This document shows positions 12,800-27,703 of a stretch of DNA of 64,000 nt, one piece after another (the first letter of the stretch is position 1; every line of letters begins with the position of its first letter). The stretch is from an uncultured Prevotellaceae bacterium (GTDB lineage Bacteria > Bacteroidota > Bacteroidia > Bacteroidales > Bacteroidaceae): contig CADADN010000006.1 in the NCBI GenBank assembly GCA_902786665.1, positions 62,001-126,000 of the forward strand, given 5' to 3'. The position numbers were made by a program, and so were the translations under genes. The notes below the pieces were generated by a model. It made no database searches, was not told the origin of the DNA, and worked only from the letters and a program-made list of their open reading frames with translations.

Positions 12800-13552
12800 A
12801 TGGATAGACTCATCAAAAAGGCCAAGGAGATGCTGGCCAACCAGCCCCTTCTCTACCGACTGGCGGGCATCGTCTTCGGCCCCATCACCCGTCACCGCGA
12901 GCGTGTGGAAAAAGCACAAAAGGCCAAATACTTCCACGCCCACGCCTTGGAAGCCCTCAAAGCCTTCGTCGACTGCATGGAGGCGGGAAGTTTCAAATAC
13001 ACGCTTGCCTTCGGTTCCATACTGGGAGCAATCCGCGAACACGGCTTCATCAAGCACGACATCGACATCGACACCTCCATGTGGATTGACGACTTCAGTC
13101 CGGAAGTGGTGACGGCACTCGAAAAGGCAGGGTTCACATGGCTCTTCAGCAACCTGGTGGACGAGGGGCGCCTTGGTCGCGAGGACACTTTTGAATACAA
13201 CGGCGTGAAAATAGACATCTTCTATTTCTACCCAGCCATCGACACCCTTCCCTATTGTTGCGACTTCCTATACATGAAGGAAAGCAAAGACCAATTCATG
13301 GCAAGAAGGATAGAAGTGCCCTACACACGTGGGAGGAAGAAGGCACGCTTCGAAGACATCGAGGTCTATATCCCCGAAAACGCCGAGGAAATCTGCACGT
13401 TCAGATACGGCCCCAACTATATGACCCCCGACCCAAGCTGGAACTGGGTCAGCGAACGCAAGCACCTCGTGGAATGGAAGGATAAACTGGATGTCACCAC
13501 ACACAAGAAATATCCCCACGGTCAGCCTGCCACACCACCGCAGAAGGAATGA
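12800..13552 (+). CDS. LicD family phosphotransferase (first of two)
   Basis: The 250-residue protein has the LicD/fukutin nucleotidyltransferase core: YTLAFGSILGAIREHGF followed by the acidic motif IKHDIDIDTSMW, in which the Asp residues coordinate metal. LicD proteins move a phosphorylated alcohol, classically phosphocholine from CDP-choline, to a glycan. Here it closes the polysaccharide locus, so a phospho-substituent on the glycan is likely. A second LicD protein at 23327 sits opposite a cytidylyltransferase fusion that could provide a CDP-linked donor. The stop overlaps the helicase start by 4 bp. Confidence 0.85.
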   Translation: MDRLIKKAKEMLANQPLLYRLAGIVFGPITRHRERVEKAQKAKYFHAHALEALKAFVDCMEAGSFKYTLAFGSILGAIREHGFIKHDIDIDTSMWIDDFSPEVVTALEKAGFTWLFSNLVDEGRLGREDTFEYNGVKIDIFYFYPAIDTLPYCCDFLYMKESKDQFMARRIEVPYTRGRKKARFEDIEVYIPENAEEICTFRYGPNYMTPDPSWNWVSERKHLVEWKDKLDVTTHKKYPHGQPATPPQKE

Positions 13553-19586: not shown

Positions 19587-19691
19587 AAAATTGAAAATTG
19601 AAGATTGAAAATTGAAAATTCGTGCGCTCAATTTTCAATCTTCAATCTTCAATTTTCAATCTTCAATCTTTAATCTTCAATCTTCAATTTT
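19587..19691. repeat. Heptamer-based inverted repeat (ATTGAAA/ATTGAAG units)
   Basis: Units of ATTGAAAATTGAAG run for about 30 bp, then CGTGCGCTC, then the reverse-complement units (TTTTCAATCTTCA) run for about 70 bp up to the RNase H start. Together they can form a long AT-rich hairpin. The same heptamer units recur at 25083-25107 and, in altered form, at 20154-20195. Confidence 0.88.
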
Positions 19692-21174: not shown

Positions 21175-21282
21175 GTGACGTGATAACGGAATAACGGGAT
21201 AACGTGATAACGGAATAACGGAATAACGGGATAACGGAATAACGGAATAACGGAATAACGAAATAACGGGATATCGAAAACC
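21175..21282. repeat. Tandem octamer repeat (GATAACGG / AATAACGG)
   Basis: About 12 copies of an 8-bp unit (A/G)ATAACG(G/T/A) lie between ribD and the following gene, both on the - strand. Read on the - strand the unit is CCGTTATT. No promoter or hairpin is recognisable. Confidence 0.9.
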
Positions 21283-21302: not shown

Positions 21303-23120
21303 CTAATCTTGGTCCAGTTCCCTGAAGGCTGCAATCAGCCGTGCATTGTCCTCGTGGTTTCTGACGGCGATTCGCATATATTGCCTGCCATCGAAGCCCT
21401 GCTTGTCGGAACAGTCCCGTAGAAGGATGTTGTAACGTTTCAACATGGAAAGCACCAGTTGGTTGGCGTTCTTTGGAGGAAGTATTTCGCAGAGGAAGTA
21501 GTTGGCCTGTGATGGCATGACACGCAGGAATCCGATGCTTTTCAATTGGCGTTCGAAATCCTGCCGCTCGGCGATGAACTTGTCACAGGCCCTCTTGTAA
21601 TCTTTCTCATACTTGTTGAATATCTGCATGAAATACTCGGCGAAAGAGTTGATGTTCCAGATGCTCACCATCTTCTTCATCCTTTGGATGAGTTCGGTGT
21701 CGGCAGAGCAAAGGATGCCCAGTCGGATGCCGGGAACGCCATAGCTTTTCGAGATGCTCTTCATCACCACCATCTTCGGATAGGCTTCAAGGATGTTGTC
21801 ATGCAACAGCGTATTGTTTTCATAGCCATTGGTGAAGTCCACGAAACTCTCGTCCACAATCAAGCGTATGTCGTGCTCCTGGCACCAACCCGCCAAGGAG
21901 AGCACCTGGTCGATGGGAATGAAGTTGCCCGAAGGGTTGTCAGGGTTGATGAGCAGGATGTTGTCGGCATGGTGCTCGCCGAAGAAGTCCATCAAATCCT
22001 TCGCGTTGTATCTATAGTCGCCATTCTGCGGTATGAAGGTTACCAGCGAATCCTTGTCACGCCGGTTGGGATATTCCTCGAAAGTGGGGCGTGTGACGCC
22101 CAATGTGCCTGGGAGCATTTCCATCAAGGCCTTGATCAATTCCGCTGCGCCATTGCCCGGGATGACATACTCCTCCCTGATTCCCCAGCATTTGCTTGCA
22201 ATCAAACTGTTCACTTTCATGCCTGAAGGGTATTCGGAAAGGAGGATGCGGAATTGCGCCTCCATTTCGTCCACGATGCGGCTTTCATTGAAATATGGAT
22301 TCACCAGGTAACAGTAGTCCAGCATCTTGGGGAATCGCCAGAATCCGCCATAGCGCCCATAATATTTTCGCAGCAAATCCTTCTCGTCGGCAAACAGTGC
22401 CTCTGCGATGTCGAGGTCTTGCTTGTCGTCAATCTCATACCATTTCTCGTTGGTGATGGGCAGTGCTTTCAGGTCGTGGCTGTTGAGAAACGAGATGATG
22501 CGCAGCACGTTCTCATAATATTCGTTGTTGCCCACCGCCTTGGTATAGGCTTCAAGGAAAGGCACATATTTCTTTTTGGAGAATTCTCGCGAGAACTTGT
22601 AGATGTTCACCGTCTTGTAGTAATGCGAGGTGTCCTTGTACCGGAACGCTTCCTTTGGTACGAAATTCAGGATGTTGTAGTCTTCATCCACACACACCAT
22701 CGTGCCATCCATCCATGGCTCGTACTTGGCCACCAACGCGAGGTTGGGGTGTGGGTTGTCGAGCAGCAGATGAAACATCTTGTCGTCAAAGATGAGGTCG
22801 CTCTCTGTCAACAGCGTGTCATCTTCAAGCAGCTTCTCCTTGGCCAGCGCGAGGGAGTAGATGTTGTTGGTCTTGTCATAGACAGGGTTTTCCACATACT
22901 CTATCTTCATGCCATACTGCTCATCGCCGAGATGCTGCCTCACGTGCTCCCCTTGGTATCCTATGACCACGACGACGCGATTCAACGATAGTTGGGACAA
23001 TTGCCTCATCACACGGTCGATTAATGGCGTTCCATTGACGGGGACCATGCATTTGGTGTTGTTTTTGGTGTATTCGCCAAGCCGCTTGCCCATTCCGGCA
23101 GCAAGGATGATTGCTTGCAT
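21303..23120 (-). CDS. Fusion: sugar/choline-phosphate-type nucleotidyltransferase + class I aminotransferase (CobD/HisC-like)
   Basis: A 605-residue two-domain protein. I choose ATG 23120, since MQAIILAAGMGKRLGEYT is the classical nucleotidyltransferase start; the longer open frame reads through the promoter region. Domain 1 (~1-235) is LicC/RmlA-like, with LTESDLIFDD supplying the metal Asp. Domain 2 (~250-605) is a fold-type I PLP enzyme with EEYVIPGNGAAELIKALM, LLINPDNPSGNF, LIVDESFVDF and the PLP lysine in VVMKSISKSYGVPGIRLG. CobD-type decarboxylases make (1-amino-2-propanol or ethanolamine) phosphate from O-phospho-Thr/Ser; HisC-type ones transaminate. A CDP-ethanolamine-like product is therefore plausible. 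It faces licD at 23327. Confidence 0.85.
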   Translation of the reverse strand: MQAIILAAGMGKRLGEYTKNNTKCMVPVNGTPLIDRVMRQLSQLSLNRVVVVIGYQGEHVRQHLGDEQYGMKIEYVENPVYDKTNNIYSLALAKEKLLEDDTLLTESDLIFDDKMFHLLLDNPHPNLALVAKYEPWMDGTMVCVDEDYNILNFVPKEAFRYKDTSHYYKTVNIYKFSREFSKKKYVPFLEAYTKAVGNNEYYENVLRIISFLNSHDLKALPITNEKWYEIDDKQDLDIAEALFADEKDLLRKYYGRYGGFWRFPKMLDYCYLVNPYFNESRIVDEMEAQFRILLSEYPSGMKVNSLIASKCWGIREEYVIPGNGAAELIKALMEMLPGTLGVTRPTFEEYPNRRDKDSLVTFIPQNGDYRYNAKDLMDFFGEHHADNILLINPDNPSGNFIPIDQVLSLAGWCQEHDIRLIVDESFVDFTNGYENNTLLHDNILEAYPKMVVMKSISKSYGVPGIRLGILCSADTELIQRMKKMVSIWNINSFAEYFMQIFNKYEKDYKRACDKFIAERQDFERQLKSIGFLRVMPSQANYFLCEILPPKNANQLVLSMLKRYNILLRDCSDKQGFDGRQYMRIAVRNHEDNARLIAAFRELDQD

Positions 23121-23185
23121 ATCTCTATTGTCTTTGTTAAAAATGTATCCTATTGAGAAGCTTCCATACTTCACAAGTGAAGTTG

Positions 23186-23193
23186 CAAAGTTA
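23186..23193 (-). promoter_or_regulatory. -7 box for the nucleotidyltransferase-aminotransferase gene
   Basis: TAACTTTG on the - strand, 65 bp upstream of the chosen start. The -33 element is weak. Its position supports the shorter start at 23120. Confidence 0.6.
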
Positions 23194-23267
23194 ATGATAT
23201 TTTTCCAATACAAGGGAGTCCACCTCAAAAAAACACACCAAACCTTAGTCATTTCACAATTATTGCT

Positions 23268-23275
23268 TACTTTTG
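23268..23275 (+). promoter_or_regulatory. -7 box for the second licD gene
   Basis: TACTTTTG on the + strand, 51 bp ahead of ATG 23327, matching TAnnTTTG. The -33 element is not clear. Confidence 0.6.
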
Positions 23276-23326
23276 CATCGTTGTTCTACATCCACGTATC
23301 GCAAACAAGTTATCTGAAAAGGAAAG

Positions 23327-24157
23327 ATGGACGAGAAAAATAAACAAGTATTAGGGCGTGTTTGGAATCCCGAAGGTTCCATACTGCGTAGAGACCAGTT
23401 GGAATTGTTCCGCATACTGAAAGCTCTCGCCAAGATATGCGAGGAACACCATATCCCCTGGTGGCTGGGGTCTGGCTCCCTGCTTGGCGCCGCCCGGCAC
23501 AAAGGTTTCATCCCATGGGATGACGACATGGACATCGTGCTGCTCCGCAAGGACTGCAAGCGTCTGGAGAAAATCCTGTGCCAACTTGAAAACGACGAGT
23601 TCGTCTATCACAGCATGGACACGGATGTCGATTATGTCAACTATTACGGAAAGTTCAGGAAACGGCACGGTGTCATCAGGTCGAAGAGCAAGCGATATGA
23701 TTACTACAAATGGAAAGGCATAGGCATCGATGTGTTCTCCATAGAGAAAACCACCTTTTTCTCCGCTTACTGGGCTGCGAAAATCTATGGGAAACTGGAG
23801 CCTCTCACACTTGACATACATCGGTCATGGCTTCGCAAGACCATGATCAGGTGCATTGAAGGCACGTGCTCGTATGTCATCTTCCCATTCCTAAGATTGA
23901 TAAGTCTTTACAATCCGAAGAATGAATACCACTACACATTAGGCACAGGCTTTCCCAAGAGCAGGTTCTATTTGAAAGACATCTTCCCTCTCATCACCAC
24001 AGAGTTTGAAGGAGAGCAGATGCCGGTTCCCAAGGACATGGATGCCTGTCTGACAAGAATGTATGGCGATTGGCGCACCCTGCCGTCTGAGGACTCCATC
24101 AAGAAACGCATTCACTGCCAGGAATATGTCGAAGAGATTTTCGGCAAGGAGGATTGA
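23327..24157 (+). CDS. LicD family phosphotransferase (second)
   Basis: A 276-residue protein with a full LicD core: HHIPWWLGSGSLLGAARHKG followed by FIPWDDDMDIVLLRKD, the metal-binding DDDMD. It shares the LicD fold with the protein at 12800 but is a different branch and slightly longer. It would transfer a phospho-alcohol from a CDP donor to a glycan or lipid. The neighbouring divergent gene encodes a cytidylyltransferase domain, exactly the activity that supplies LicD in lic1-type systems. Its end is 80 bp from the chosen prmC start, so prmC may be read from this transcript. Confidence 0.88.
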   Translation: MDEKNKQVLGRVWNPEGSILRRDQLELFRILKALAKICEEHHIPWWLGSGSLLGAARHKGFIPWDDDMDIVLLRKDCKRLEKILCQLENDEFVYHSMDTDVDYVNYYGKFRKRHGVIRSKSKRYDYYKWKGIGIDVFSIEKTTFFSAYWAAKIYGKLEPLTLDIHRSWLRKTMIRCIEGTCSYVIFPFLRLISLYNPKNEYHYTLGTGFPKSRFYLKDIFPLITTEFEGEQMPVPKDMDACLTRMYGDWRTLPSEDSIKKRIHCQEYVEEIFGKED

Positions 24158-26584: not shown

Positions 26585-27703
26585 ATGAACATTTGCATTG
26601 TAGGTGGAGGCCACATAGGCACGACCCTGACTTGTTACATCAAACATACCCATCCCGAGTTTCATGTGTCATTGTTTACTCGCAGGCCTGAGAAATTTGC
26701 GAGTCAAATCACATGCAACGACATAGAGCAGCAAATCTCATATACGGTCTCTCCTGATATCATCAGCAGCCAGGCCGACATTGCCGCCCATGACGCAGAC
26801 ATCGTTTTCATTGCATTGCCCCATTTTGCCGTTGAGAAAGCCTTCAAGGACATTGCACCACATGTAGGAAAGAATTGCCTGGTTGGAGTCTTGCCTGGCG
26901 GAGGTGGCTGTGAATTCTTTTTCCGTCATTATTTCGATGATGACAAGACGCTGTTTGGATTCCAGAGGGTGCCATTCACGGCAAAACTGAAAGAGTATGG
27001 GAAAGAGACGAATCTCAAGAGTTGGAAACCATTCAGTGTCGTCGGCACCTTGCAAAGCAAAAGAATCAATGACGTTTGTCGAAGAATCGAGGAATGTGGA
27101 TTGAAGACTAAAGTGGCAACCAACTATCTGGAAGTGGCACTGACACCCACCAACCCCATCCTTCATACTTCAAGGACGTATGAATTGTTTAGGAATCACG
27201 ACAGGCAGCATCCTTTCCCCACCCGCTTCAAATTCTATGTGGGATGGACCGACTTCACATCCGAAGTCATGACTTCAATGGACAAGGAACTTCATTCCTT
27301 GCTTGACGCCATCACCGAAATGGATACCTCCGCCATTCGTCCGCTCTCGGAACATTACGAATCACCGACCATCGAGGCCATGACCAAGAAAATCAACAGC
27401 ATCGCCACTTTCCAATCCGTATACGCCCCGTTGAAAGAAATGGATGGCGCTTGGTATGCAGACACCACAACCAGGATGTTCACGGAAGATTTCCCATGGG
27501 GATTGGCCGTCATCCGCTCATATTTCGACTATTTCGACATCGAGGCTCCCACCATGGACATGGTGCTTTCCTGGTATGCTGATTACATGGGACTGGATTG
27601 GTTTGAGGATGGGAAGTTCGTCGGAAAGGGATTGAAAGGTACCGGCGCCATACAGAATTATGGCATCAAGAACAAGGAGGAACTGCTTGCGGTTTATCAG
27701 TAG
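26585..27703 (+). CDS. NAD/NADP octopine/nopaline dehydrogenase family protein
   Basis: The protein is 372 residues from ATG 26585 (MNICIVGGGHIGTTLTCYIK); the longer frame adds 13 poorly coding residues. The N-terminal Rossmann fold has GGGHIG; a middle segment is DIVFIALPHFAVEKAF. The C-terminal domain contains LTPTNPILHTSRTYELF, where the His in the NPxxH block corresponds to the catalytic His of opine dehydrogenases. Such enzymes reductively condense an amino acid with a 2-oxo acid, or reduce 2-dehydropantoate-like acids. Substrate here is unknown. It is isolated between a promoter and converging genes, so it is probably monocistronic. Confidence 0.85.
   Translation: MNICIVGGGHIGTTLTCYIKHTHPEFHVSLFTRRPEKFASQITCNDIEQQISYTVSPDIISSQADIAAHDADIVFIALPHFAVEKAFKDIAPHVGKNCLVGVLPGGGGCEFFFRHYFDDDKTLFGFQRVPFTAKLKEYGKETNLKSWKPFSVVGTLQSKRINDVCRRIEECGLKTKVATNYLEVALTPTNPILHTSRTYELFRNHDRQHPFPTRFKFYVGWTDFTSEVMTSMDKELHSLLDAITEMDTSAIRPLSEHYESPTIEAMTKKINSIATFQSVYAPLKEMDGAWYADTTTRMFTEDFPWGLAVIRSYFDYFDIEAPTMDMVLSWYADYMGLDWFEDGKFVGKGLKGTGAIQNYGIKNKEELLAVYQ

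Follow-up and report, generated by a model that had tools for sequence, protein, structure and literature searches.

The 64,000-nucleotide stretch of DNA analysed here (the window), from an uncultured Prevotellaceae bacterium, encodes a 605-residue protein in which a nucleotidyltransferase is joined to a pyridoxal phosphate (PLP) enzyme (21303..23120, minus strand). The best-supported reading of this fusion, and as a prediction from sequence a well-founded one, is a route from phosphoserine to phosphoethanolamine, on to the CDP-activated form and then to a LicD-family phosphotransferase. Across the family the fusion is linked to reductases of the octopine dehydrogenase (ODH, PF02317) and ornithine cyclodeaminase (OCD)/mu-crystallin (PF02423) families, and we propose that this linkage extends the route to an N-carboxyalkyl phosphoethanolamine tag. 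The whole pathway, from the fusion through phosphoethanolamine, its CDP derivative and N-carboxyalkylation to transfer by LicD, appears probable, though far from assured.

With the substrates, reaction order, keto acid and glycan acceptor as we infer them, the PLP half would decarboxylate O-phospho-L-serine to phosphoethanolamine and the N-terminal half would couple the resulting amine phosphate to CTP. An NAD(P)H-dependent imine reductase of the ODH or OCD family would condense the amine with an alpha-keto acid, pyruvate being the simplest guess, to give an N-(1-carboxyalkyl)ethanolamine phosphate either before or after activation with CTP. LicD would then transfer the phospho-amine from its CDP carrier to a glycan of the cell surface. 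The observations behind this scheme are the domain anatomy and relationships of the proteins, their conserved residues, the linkage of their genes, the occurrence of ODH-LicD gene fusions and the lack of a phosphoenolpyruvate (PEP) mutase match in the genome.

The fusion was delineated by open reading frame (ORF) calls, Pfam, NCBIfam, profiles run against the PDB, and alignments. The longest ORF over it has 649 residues (21303-23252), and the 605-residue form begins at the conserved start MQAIILAAGMG at 23120; M1-Q2-A3 are invariant in all 41 aligned fusion sequences, the window's among them. For alignments the protein was divided into a nucleotidyltransferase domain of residues 1-245 (22386..23120, minus strand) and a PLP domain of residues 246-605 (21303..22385, minus strand), and the Pfam matches are NTP_transf_3 (55 bits, residues 3-134) and Aminotran_1_2 (109 bits, residues 315-598). 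The proposed role is that of an L-serine-O-phosphate decarboxylase joined to a CTP:phosphoethanolamine-type cytidylyltransferase. Divergent from the fusion lies the LicD gene (23327..24157, plus strand), whose product matches PF04991 with 121.7 bits against a cut-off of 22.6, and which is kept in two related loci, L009 (96%) and L010 (81%). An earlier note on this DNA had described the fusion and its divergent LicD neighbour with these coordinates, which ORF calls and Pfam bear out; the spacing of 207 bp given there is 206 bp as measured between the two starts (23121-23326).

The PLP half was expected in the earlier note to decarboxylate O-phosphoserine or O-phosphothreonine, an expectation that would suffer if the domain grouped with histidinol-phosphate transaminases (HisC). 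A profile of 12 family members run against the PDB scored 190 bits with 6oux, 133 with 3ftb, 120 with CobD (1lc5) and 96 and 66 with HisC (8bj1 and 1fg3, respectively). The closest PDB relative, 6oux, is 29% identical to the PLP half. Its aligned segment agrees at 100% identity over 345 residues with a Sulfurospirillum sp. 'SP' protein whose gene lies between cbiB and cobU and whose annotation reads 'norcobamide biosynthesis serine-O-phosphate decarboxylase'. The decarboxylase SMUL_1544, of this type, is among the subjects of PMC4585668. In a tree of 31 PLP domains built by maximum likelihood, rooted with HisC-type sequences and leaving out the standalone relative G895 (L197), the fusions, most of the rhizobial nucleotidyltransferase-linked PLP enzymes and the serine-O-phosphate-decarboxylase-like enzymes form one clade with an ultrafast bootstrap (UFB) of 100. 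CobD and 3ftb fall in a separate clade (UFB 86), and a PLP enzyme encoded beside aepX in R. indigoferae groups with HisC and not with the fusions. The grouping with HisC was thus not found. Membership of the 6oux clade favours phosphoserine as the substrate, whereas phosphothreonine, the substrate of CobD chemistry, is disfavoured by the 190 bits for 6oux against 120 for CobD. The PLP half is, by these relationships, a well-supported candidate for an O-phosphoserine decarboxylase-like enzyme that is neither HisC nor cobalamin CobD. Its PLP lysine, K458 in the window, is kept in 142 of 147 aligned sequences, replaced by S or E in three and missing from two fragments, and is accompanied by a W488-N-x-N491 motif. 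The alignment combines two sample sets that overlap in genomes, and L033, L037 and L038 appear in it as gaps.

The genome has a separate HisC gene on contig C18 adjoining HisG (338.1 bits, cut-off 276.55) and, on contig C30, a separate CobD-like gene that follows CbiK and TonB-receptor genes and whose 243 bits do not reach the cut-off of 290.55, so that neither housekeeping role is vacant for the fusion. The fusion was rejected as the HisC of this genome, since that gene lies elsewhere and the match of the fusion to TIGR01141 (137.1 bits) is below the HisC cut-off. It was likewise rejected as a cobalamin CobD in view of the CobD-like gene; TIGR01140 (CobD) is its top NCBIfam model, at 180.5 bits and thus below cut-off. 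The genome also has a phosphatidylserine decarboxylase match of 131 bits, which means that phosphatidylethanolamine can be made separately from the fusion. A supply of phosphoethanolamine for membrane lipids was therefore set aside as the role of the fusion, and is a possible additional one.

The nucleotidyltransferase half probably uses CTP, judging from its relatives. Its profile matches only LicC (1jyk) and Treponema PntC (6pd1) in the PDB at E<=1e-8, both of them CTP enzymes, and sugar nucleotidyltransferases rank lower down in a search with the single sequence. Residues D108, E229 and D231, which align with metal-binding acids of the LicC/PntC cytidylyltransferases (we take LicC D107 and D218 to be among these), and the glutamate pair E106 and E203 are present in all 144 sequences that cover the region, of 147 aligned. 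An excerpt of PMC6697681 names LicC Glu216 as a metal-binding acid and describes PntC Glu104 and Glu196 as positioned to bind the primary amine of 2-aminoethylphosphonate (AEP), the LicC counterparts being Asp105 and Asp192. E203 was placed via LicC D192, because the direct hidden Markov model (HMM) alignment to PntC is shifted by one residue there. The likeness of E106/E203 to the PntC pair makes phosphoethanolamine or another small amine a likelier substrate than phosphocholine. The earlier note had named use of UTP or dTTP with sugar phosphates, next to a HisC-like PLP domain, as what would refute its proposal; at the level of sequence the core of that proposal withstands both.

Relatives of the fusion are encoded in 154 stretches, the best 80 of which (the first set) come from Prevotella, Bacteroidaceae, other Bacteroidales and six Fibrobacter-labelled metagenome-assembled genomes, at 64-96% identity. 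Of 301 genomes sampled from the same family, 72 have the fusion, its own genome counted. A sample of 395 genomes from the phylum gave three matches at E<=1e-40, including its own; the other two are a full-length protein at 32% identity (G143) and a PLP domain only (G192). This recurrence is not chance. The fusions in the Fibrobacter-labelled genomes (L019, L020, L021, L023, L024 and L029) are 77-78% identical to that of the window, reflecting either transfer between phyla or mis-binned contigs. In L172 and L173 the fusion is divided into two adjacent ORFs.

The commonest partner of the fusion is an imine reductase. Besides the genome of the window, 71 genomes of the family match the fusion; leaving aside G646, whose match is partial, the neighbourhoods in the remaining 70 were read, some of them on contigs that end early, with genes called by HMMs derived from the first set of 80 loci. 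Directly downstream of the fusion, on the same strand, an ODH gene is found in 41 of the 70 loci and an OCD gene in 11, the two together in none, so that a reductase is the next gene in 52. ODH occurs elsewhere in the flanks of four more loci, giving 56 with a reductase overall. The ODH and OCD/mu-crystallin families both include NAD(P)H enzymes that reduce the imine formed by an amine and a keto acid, and this shared chemistry, with the alternation of the two, suggests one role filled twice. Being unrelated, the two families might give products of opposite (R/S) stereochemistry. ODH is present in 47 of the 72 genomes that have the fusion and in 11 of the 229 that lack it (Fisher P = 4e-26, uncorrected for kinship); the 301 genomes of the two counts were taken as the same set from their identical handles. 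In G612, whose fusion locus has no reductase, an ODH gene is found on another contig (L106, L216).

LicD lies within the examined flanks in 42 of the 70 loci. ODH and LicD form a single ORF in five of them (L133, L134, L135, L138 and L165), and Pfam confirmed both domains in L134 and also in L079 of the first set. In the cultured Prevotella ruminicola KHT3, the fusion, ODH, LicD and a flippase-type gene are consecutive. The linkage between the fusion and licD, on which the earlier note had built a phosphoethanolamine tag, recurs in the family as well as in other phyla; the partner it had missed is the reductase. With an imine reductase as the most conserved partner, the final tag may be something other than plain phosphoethanolamine. 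In L108 (2745-5992) the genes behind the fusion encode an amino-acid permease, another small nucleotidyltransferase and ODH, and amine uptake is a possible alternative source there.

The window has its own ODH gene (26585..27703, plus strand), in an ORF that runs from 26546 with the likely start MNICIVGG at 26585. The protein belongs to the octopine dehydrogenase family by its PF02317 score (82.2 bits, cut-off 30) and by the conserved region: N190, P191, H194, R297, E301 and D302 are invariant in 47 aligned sequences, and presumably include the catalytic His/Arg/Asp residues. It is 98% identical to the ODH of L009 and 72% identical to that of L123, which lies within 15 bp behind a fusion. This similarity and the conserved residues point to N-carboxyalkylation of an amine as its putative role. 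The window and the Prevotella locus L009 match gene for gene from ribD to beyond ODH. Both are without ODH between the fusion and ribD, and their ODH adjoins comF. In L010, whose fusion is 94% identical, a main-clade ODH separates the fusion from ribD, and an arginine-deiminase-family gene stands beside comF in place of ODH. Because the synteny of L010 ends at comF, this is not a clean swap. Each of the three neighbourhoods has one ODH within the stretches examined, and the position in the window and L009 is read as relocation or replacement. On that reading the set in the window is probably complete, with the fusion, LicD and ODH within 6.4 kb. A second ODH of the same genome (L091:9654-10739) was dropped, as it is only 15-22% identical to the others and falls as an outgroup of the tree.

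The nature of the amine is suggested by genomes that have ODH and lack the fusion. In two of 11 such genomes (L217:1307-6542 and L218:1227-6601), genes for a PF12804 nucleotidyltransferase, PEP mutase, phosphonopyruvate decarboxylase and AEP transaminase are followed by an ODH gene that overlaps the last of them. In L218 the PEP mutase, the decarboxylase and the transaminase pass NCBIfam equivalog cut-offs (419, 513 and 469 bits); the L217 enzymes are 86-92% identical to these, its transaminase lying in two frames. The ODHs of both operons nest within the main fusion-linked ODH clade, beside that of L108. One reductase lineage thus stands behind both the AEP pathway and the fusion. A substrate shared by the two would most simply be the 2-aminoethyl group, and this group is what decarboxylated phosphoserine carries. 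The ODH-terminated operons themselves suggest N-carboxyalkyl AEP decoration. There is about an even chance that these loci belong to an unrecognised opine branch of glycan decoration, in which a 2-aminoethyl phosphate (from the fusion) or phosphonate (from the AEP operon) would be N-carboxyalkylated by an ODH/mu-crystallin-type reductase, activated with CTP and attached by LicD. Of the nine further fusion-less regions, seven have an ODH-type gene by HMM (in L225 a 103-residue piece at a contig end); no ODH-type gene was found in L222 and L227, and neither the fusion nor AEP genes in any of the nine. The ODH of L215 is of another type.

No PEP mutase match (PF13714) was found in the genome of the window, whereas 11 of 14 control genomes match, and an AEP/PntC pathway was accordingly rejected for this genome. 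A strong, full-length PEP mutase is present in 12 of the 69 fusion genomes searched (G603 and G646 lay outside the search), and in L150 its gene directly follows the fusion and ODH.

The phosphoserine route could also end without the reductase, with LicD transferring CDP-activated phosphoethanolamine as such and the reductase being irrelevant in the species of the window. The immediate neighbour of the window fusion is indeed LicD and not ODH. In L141 and L171 LicD stands directly behind the fusion and a reductase was not found, in the distant L175 (32%) the fusion and LicD overlap, and the glutamate pair suits a small primary amine. However, an ODH of the type found behind the L123 fusion lies 3.4 kb away in the window, a reductase is present in the flanks of 56 loci, and reductase and transferase are joined in the five ODH-LicD fusions, which makes the plain tag unlikely as the end of the route. 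More doubtful still is a PLP half acting as a transaminase and making serinol phosphate, phosphoserine or phosphonoalanine for activation with CTP. The fold is common to HisC, Cj1437 of C. jejuni makes serinol phosphate in the same capsule pathway as Cj1436 (according to an excerpt of PMC12409886), and in Bradyrhizobium a PLP enzyme of the fusion clade adjoins PEP mutase; the UFB 100 clade with the serine-O-phosphate decarboxylase, and the main-clade ODHs that also end AEP operons and point to a 2-aminoethyl amine, argue the other way. True CobD chemistry on O-phosphothreonine, giving a tag of 1-amino-2-propanol phosphate or its N-carboxyalkyl form, is very improbable. It can draw on the CobD model being the top NCBIfam match, though a sub-cut-off one, but the PLP half is closer to 6oux, annotated as a serine-phosphate enzyme, than to CobD, and the genome has its separate CobD-like gene.

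Several observations weigh against the proposed N-carboxyalkyl phosphoethanolamine pathway. The CobD model scores the fusion (181 bits), the HisC of the same genome (178) and the Sulfurospirillum decarboxylase (174) alike, all below cut-off. It does not separate the paralogues, and the choice between decarboxylase and transaminase thus depends on clade membership. Within that clade the fusions (UFB 87) and the decarboxylases (UFB 96) are sister subclades, so that the function is carried across the split. The Bradyrhizobium arrangement speaks against a uniform substrate, and in L083, L171 and L174 the PLP lysine is replaced while the nucleotidyltransferase residues are intact. NCBIfam matches of the nucleotidyltransferase half, which stand against the coupling to CTP that the earlier note had suggested and the LicC and PntC matches favour, are mostly to sugar-phosphate enzymes (Arch_glmU 84.9 bits, AglF 73.4 bits), far below cut-off. 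In the examined flanks, some of which are cut by contig ends, no reductase was found in 14 of the 70 loci and no LicD in 28. The ODH of the window is not adjacent to the fusion and shares only 28-34% identity with the main fusion-linked ODHs. In a wider tree the ODHs of L215, which is fusion-less, and of Rhizobium (L204) branch with weak support between the window pair and the main clade, so that the two fusion-linked ODH types may not be sisters. Nine of the 11 fusion-less ODH genomes have no AEP genes in the stretch read, and 51 of the 69 fusion genomes have a PEP mutase match at E<=0.001, mostly weak and partial. Full-length fusions of Priestia and Pseudonocardia have no clear LicD or ODH nearby. 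Finally, the contamination of the source genome bin is 9.67%.

The proposed pathway is rated as a variant of the Lic- and Pnt-type decoration with CDP-activated phospho-amines. It would share with the Lic (LicA-LicC-LicD) pathway of phosphocholine decoration a PF12804 cytidylyltransferase, a PF04991 LicD and the passage of a CDP-activated amine phosphate to a glycan. Unlike that pathway, it would draw the amine phosphate from phosphoserine within the same polypeptide, with no need of choline; the fusion has a glutamate pair in place of the aspartate pair of LicC, and an imine reductase as its commonest partner. The Pnt pathway also has a nucleotidyltransferase fused to a PLP enzyme, Treponema PntC (6pd1), and an amine pocket of the Glu104/Glu196 type. 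There, however, the PLP half is a class V aminotransferase, whereas that of the fusion is of class I/II and serine-O-phosphate-decarboxylase-like, in a genome without a PEP mutase match. The SMUL_1544-type decarboxylase (6oux), the closest relative of the PLP half, is a standalone enzyme of norcobamide synthesis encoded in a cobamide operon, while its counterpart here is one protein with a cytidylyltransferase and has LicD and ODH as linked genes. By analogy, Cj1436 is a precedent for a serine-phosphate decarboxylase in capsule synthesis: as described in an excerpt of PMC12409886, phosphoserine is the source of the capsule amine, and the ethanolamine phosphate becomes linked to glucuronate as an amide, a CDP step not being mentioned.

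If the keto acid is pyruvate, the proposed pathway would make a residue that surface glycans already contain. N-[(R)-1-carboxyethyl]ethanolamine phosphate is a residue of P. mirabilis. It appears as an abbreviation in the glossary of PMC9630907 and in a figure legend there that deals with O-polysaccharides of P. mirabilis and capsules of K. pneumoniae, and it enters the comparison in that form only. Among the papers listed in literature searches that reached few subscription journals and in two cases gave part of the hits, none links LicD with an opine dehydrogenase or a serine-phosphate decarboxylase, judging from its entry, which is weak evidence of novelty. If the proposal is correct, the fusion is a self-sufficient source of phospho-amine tags for surface glycans, starting from phosphoserine, and the loci supply candidate genes for the carboxyethyl-ethanolamine phosphate residue listed in glycan chemistry. 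For many capsule-type loci of gut and rumen Bacteroidales, the chemistry could then be predicted. That a phosphate module is exchanged for a phosphonate one ahead of the same reductase lineage is open to direct test.

More distant relatives were sought by tblastn in plasmid records. Matches occur in 89 of these, with coverage of 80% or more in one place in 12 of them; 60 of the 89 were listed. Among the matches listed, Fusobacterium has a full-length fusion at 48% identity with LicD 2.2 kb upstream. In Erwinia and Rahnella a full-length fusion is followed by a CDP-alcohol phosphatidyltransferase, which relatives in Agrobacterium vitis and Rhizobium also adjoin. A plasmid of Rhizobium sp. 007 (L204:754-9015) carries separate PLP and phosphocholine cytidylyltransferase genes with genes for a CDP-alcohol phosphatidyltransferase, an octopine dehydrogenase and a methyltransferase. 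A Gloeothece plasmid (L206:4977-8439) has a full-length fusion, an S-adenosylmethionine (SAM) methyltransferase and LicD consecutively. These arrangements would fit a recurring theme in which a CDP-amino alcohol, sometimes N-modified, is passed to a transferase. The product of the Rhizobium stretch is possibly an opine-type phospholipid, and that of the Gloeothece set phosphocholine or a methylated phosphoethanolamine made from phosphoserine.

Standalone serine-O-phosphate-decarboxylase-like genes occur in other Bacteroidota (L194-L196, L198, L199 and L177). The neighbour is clearly a HAD hydrolase in two of the six (L194 and L177) and weakly phosphatase-like in L196 and L198; that in L195 and L199 has no Pfam match. 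These genes perhaps yield free ethanolamine, as for the C. jejuni capsule.

A second LicD-family protein of the window (12800..13552, plus strand), which the earlier note had placed in a polysaccharide locus, is a weak candidate member. Its PF04991 match of 30.7 bits exceeds the cut-off of 22.6 and extends across 36 residues; it carries little weight because the genome has nine PF04991 matches in total. Elsewhere in the bin (C78:10788-12401), as in L093:5134-6914, a HisC-like PLP gene stands immediately ahead of a LicC-like nucleotidyltransferase gene, and two LicD matches lie some 8 kb off; this is perhaps a second phospho-amine system. Intergenic short tandem repeats with units of 7-8 bp are present near ribD and the fusion (19587-19688 and 21183-21273). 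The latter is an 8-bp repeat of 11.4 copies, ATAACGGA, lying between the fusion and ribD (21183..21273), at the site occupied by ODH in L010.

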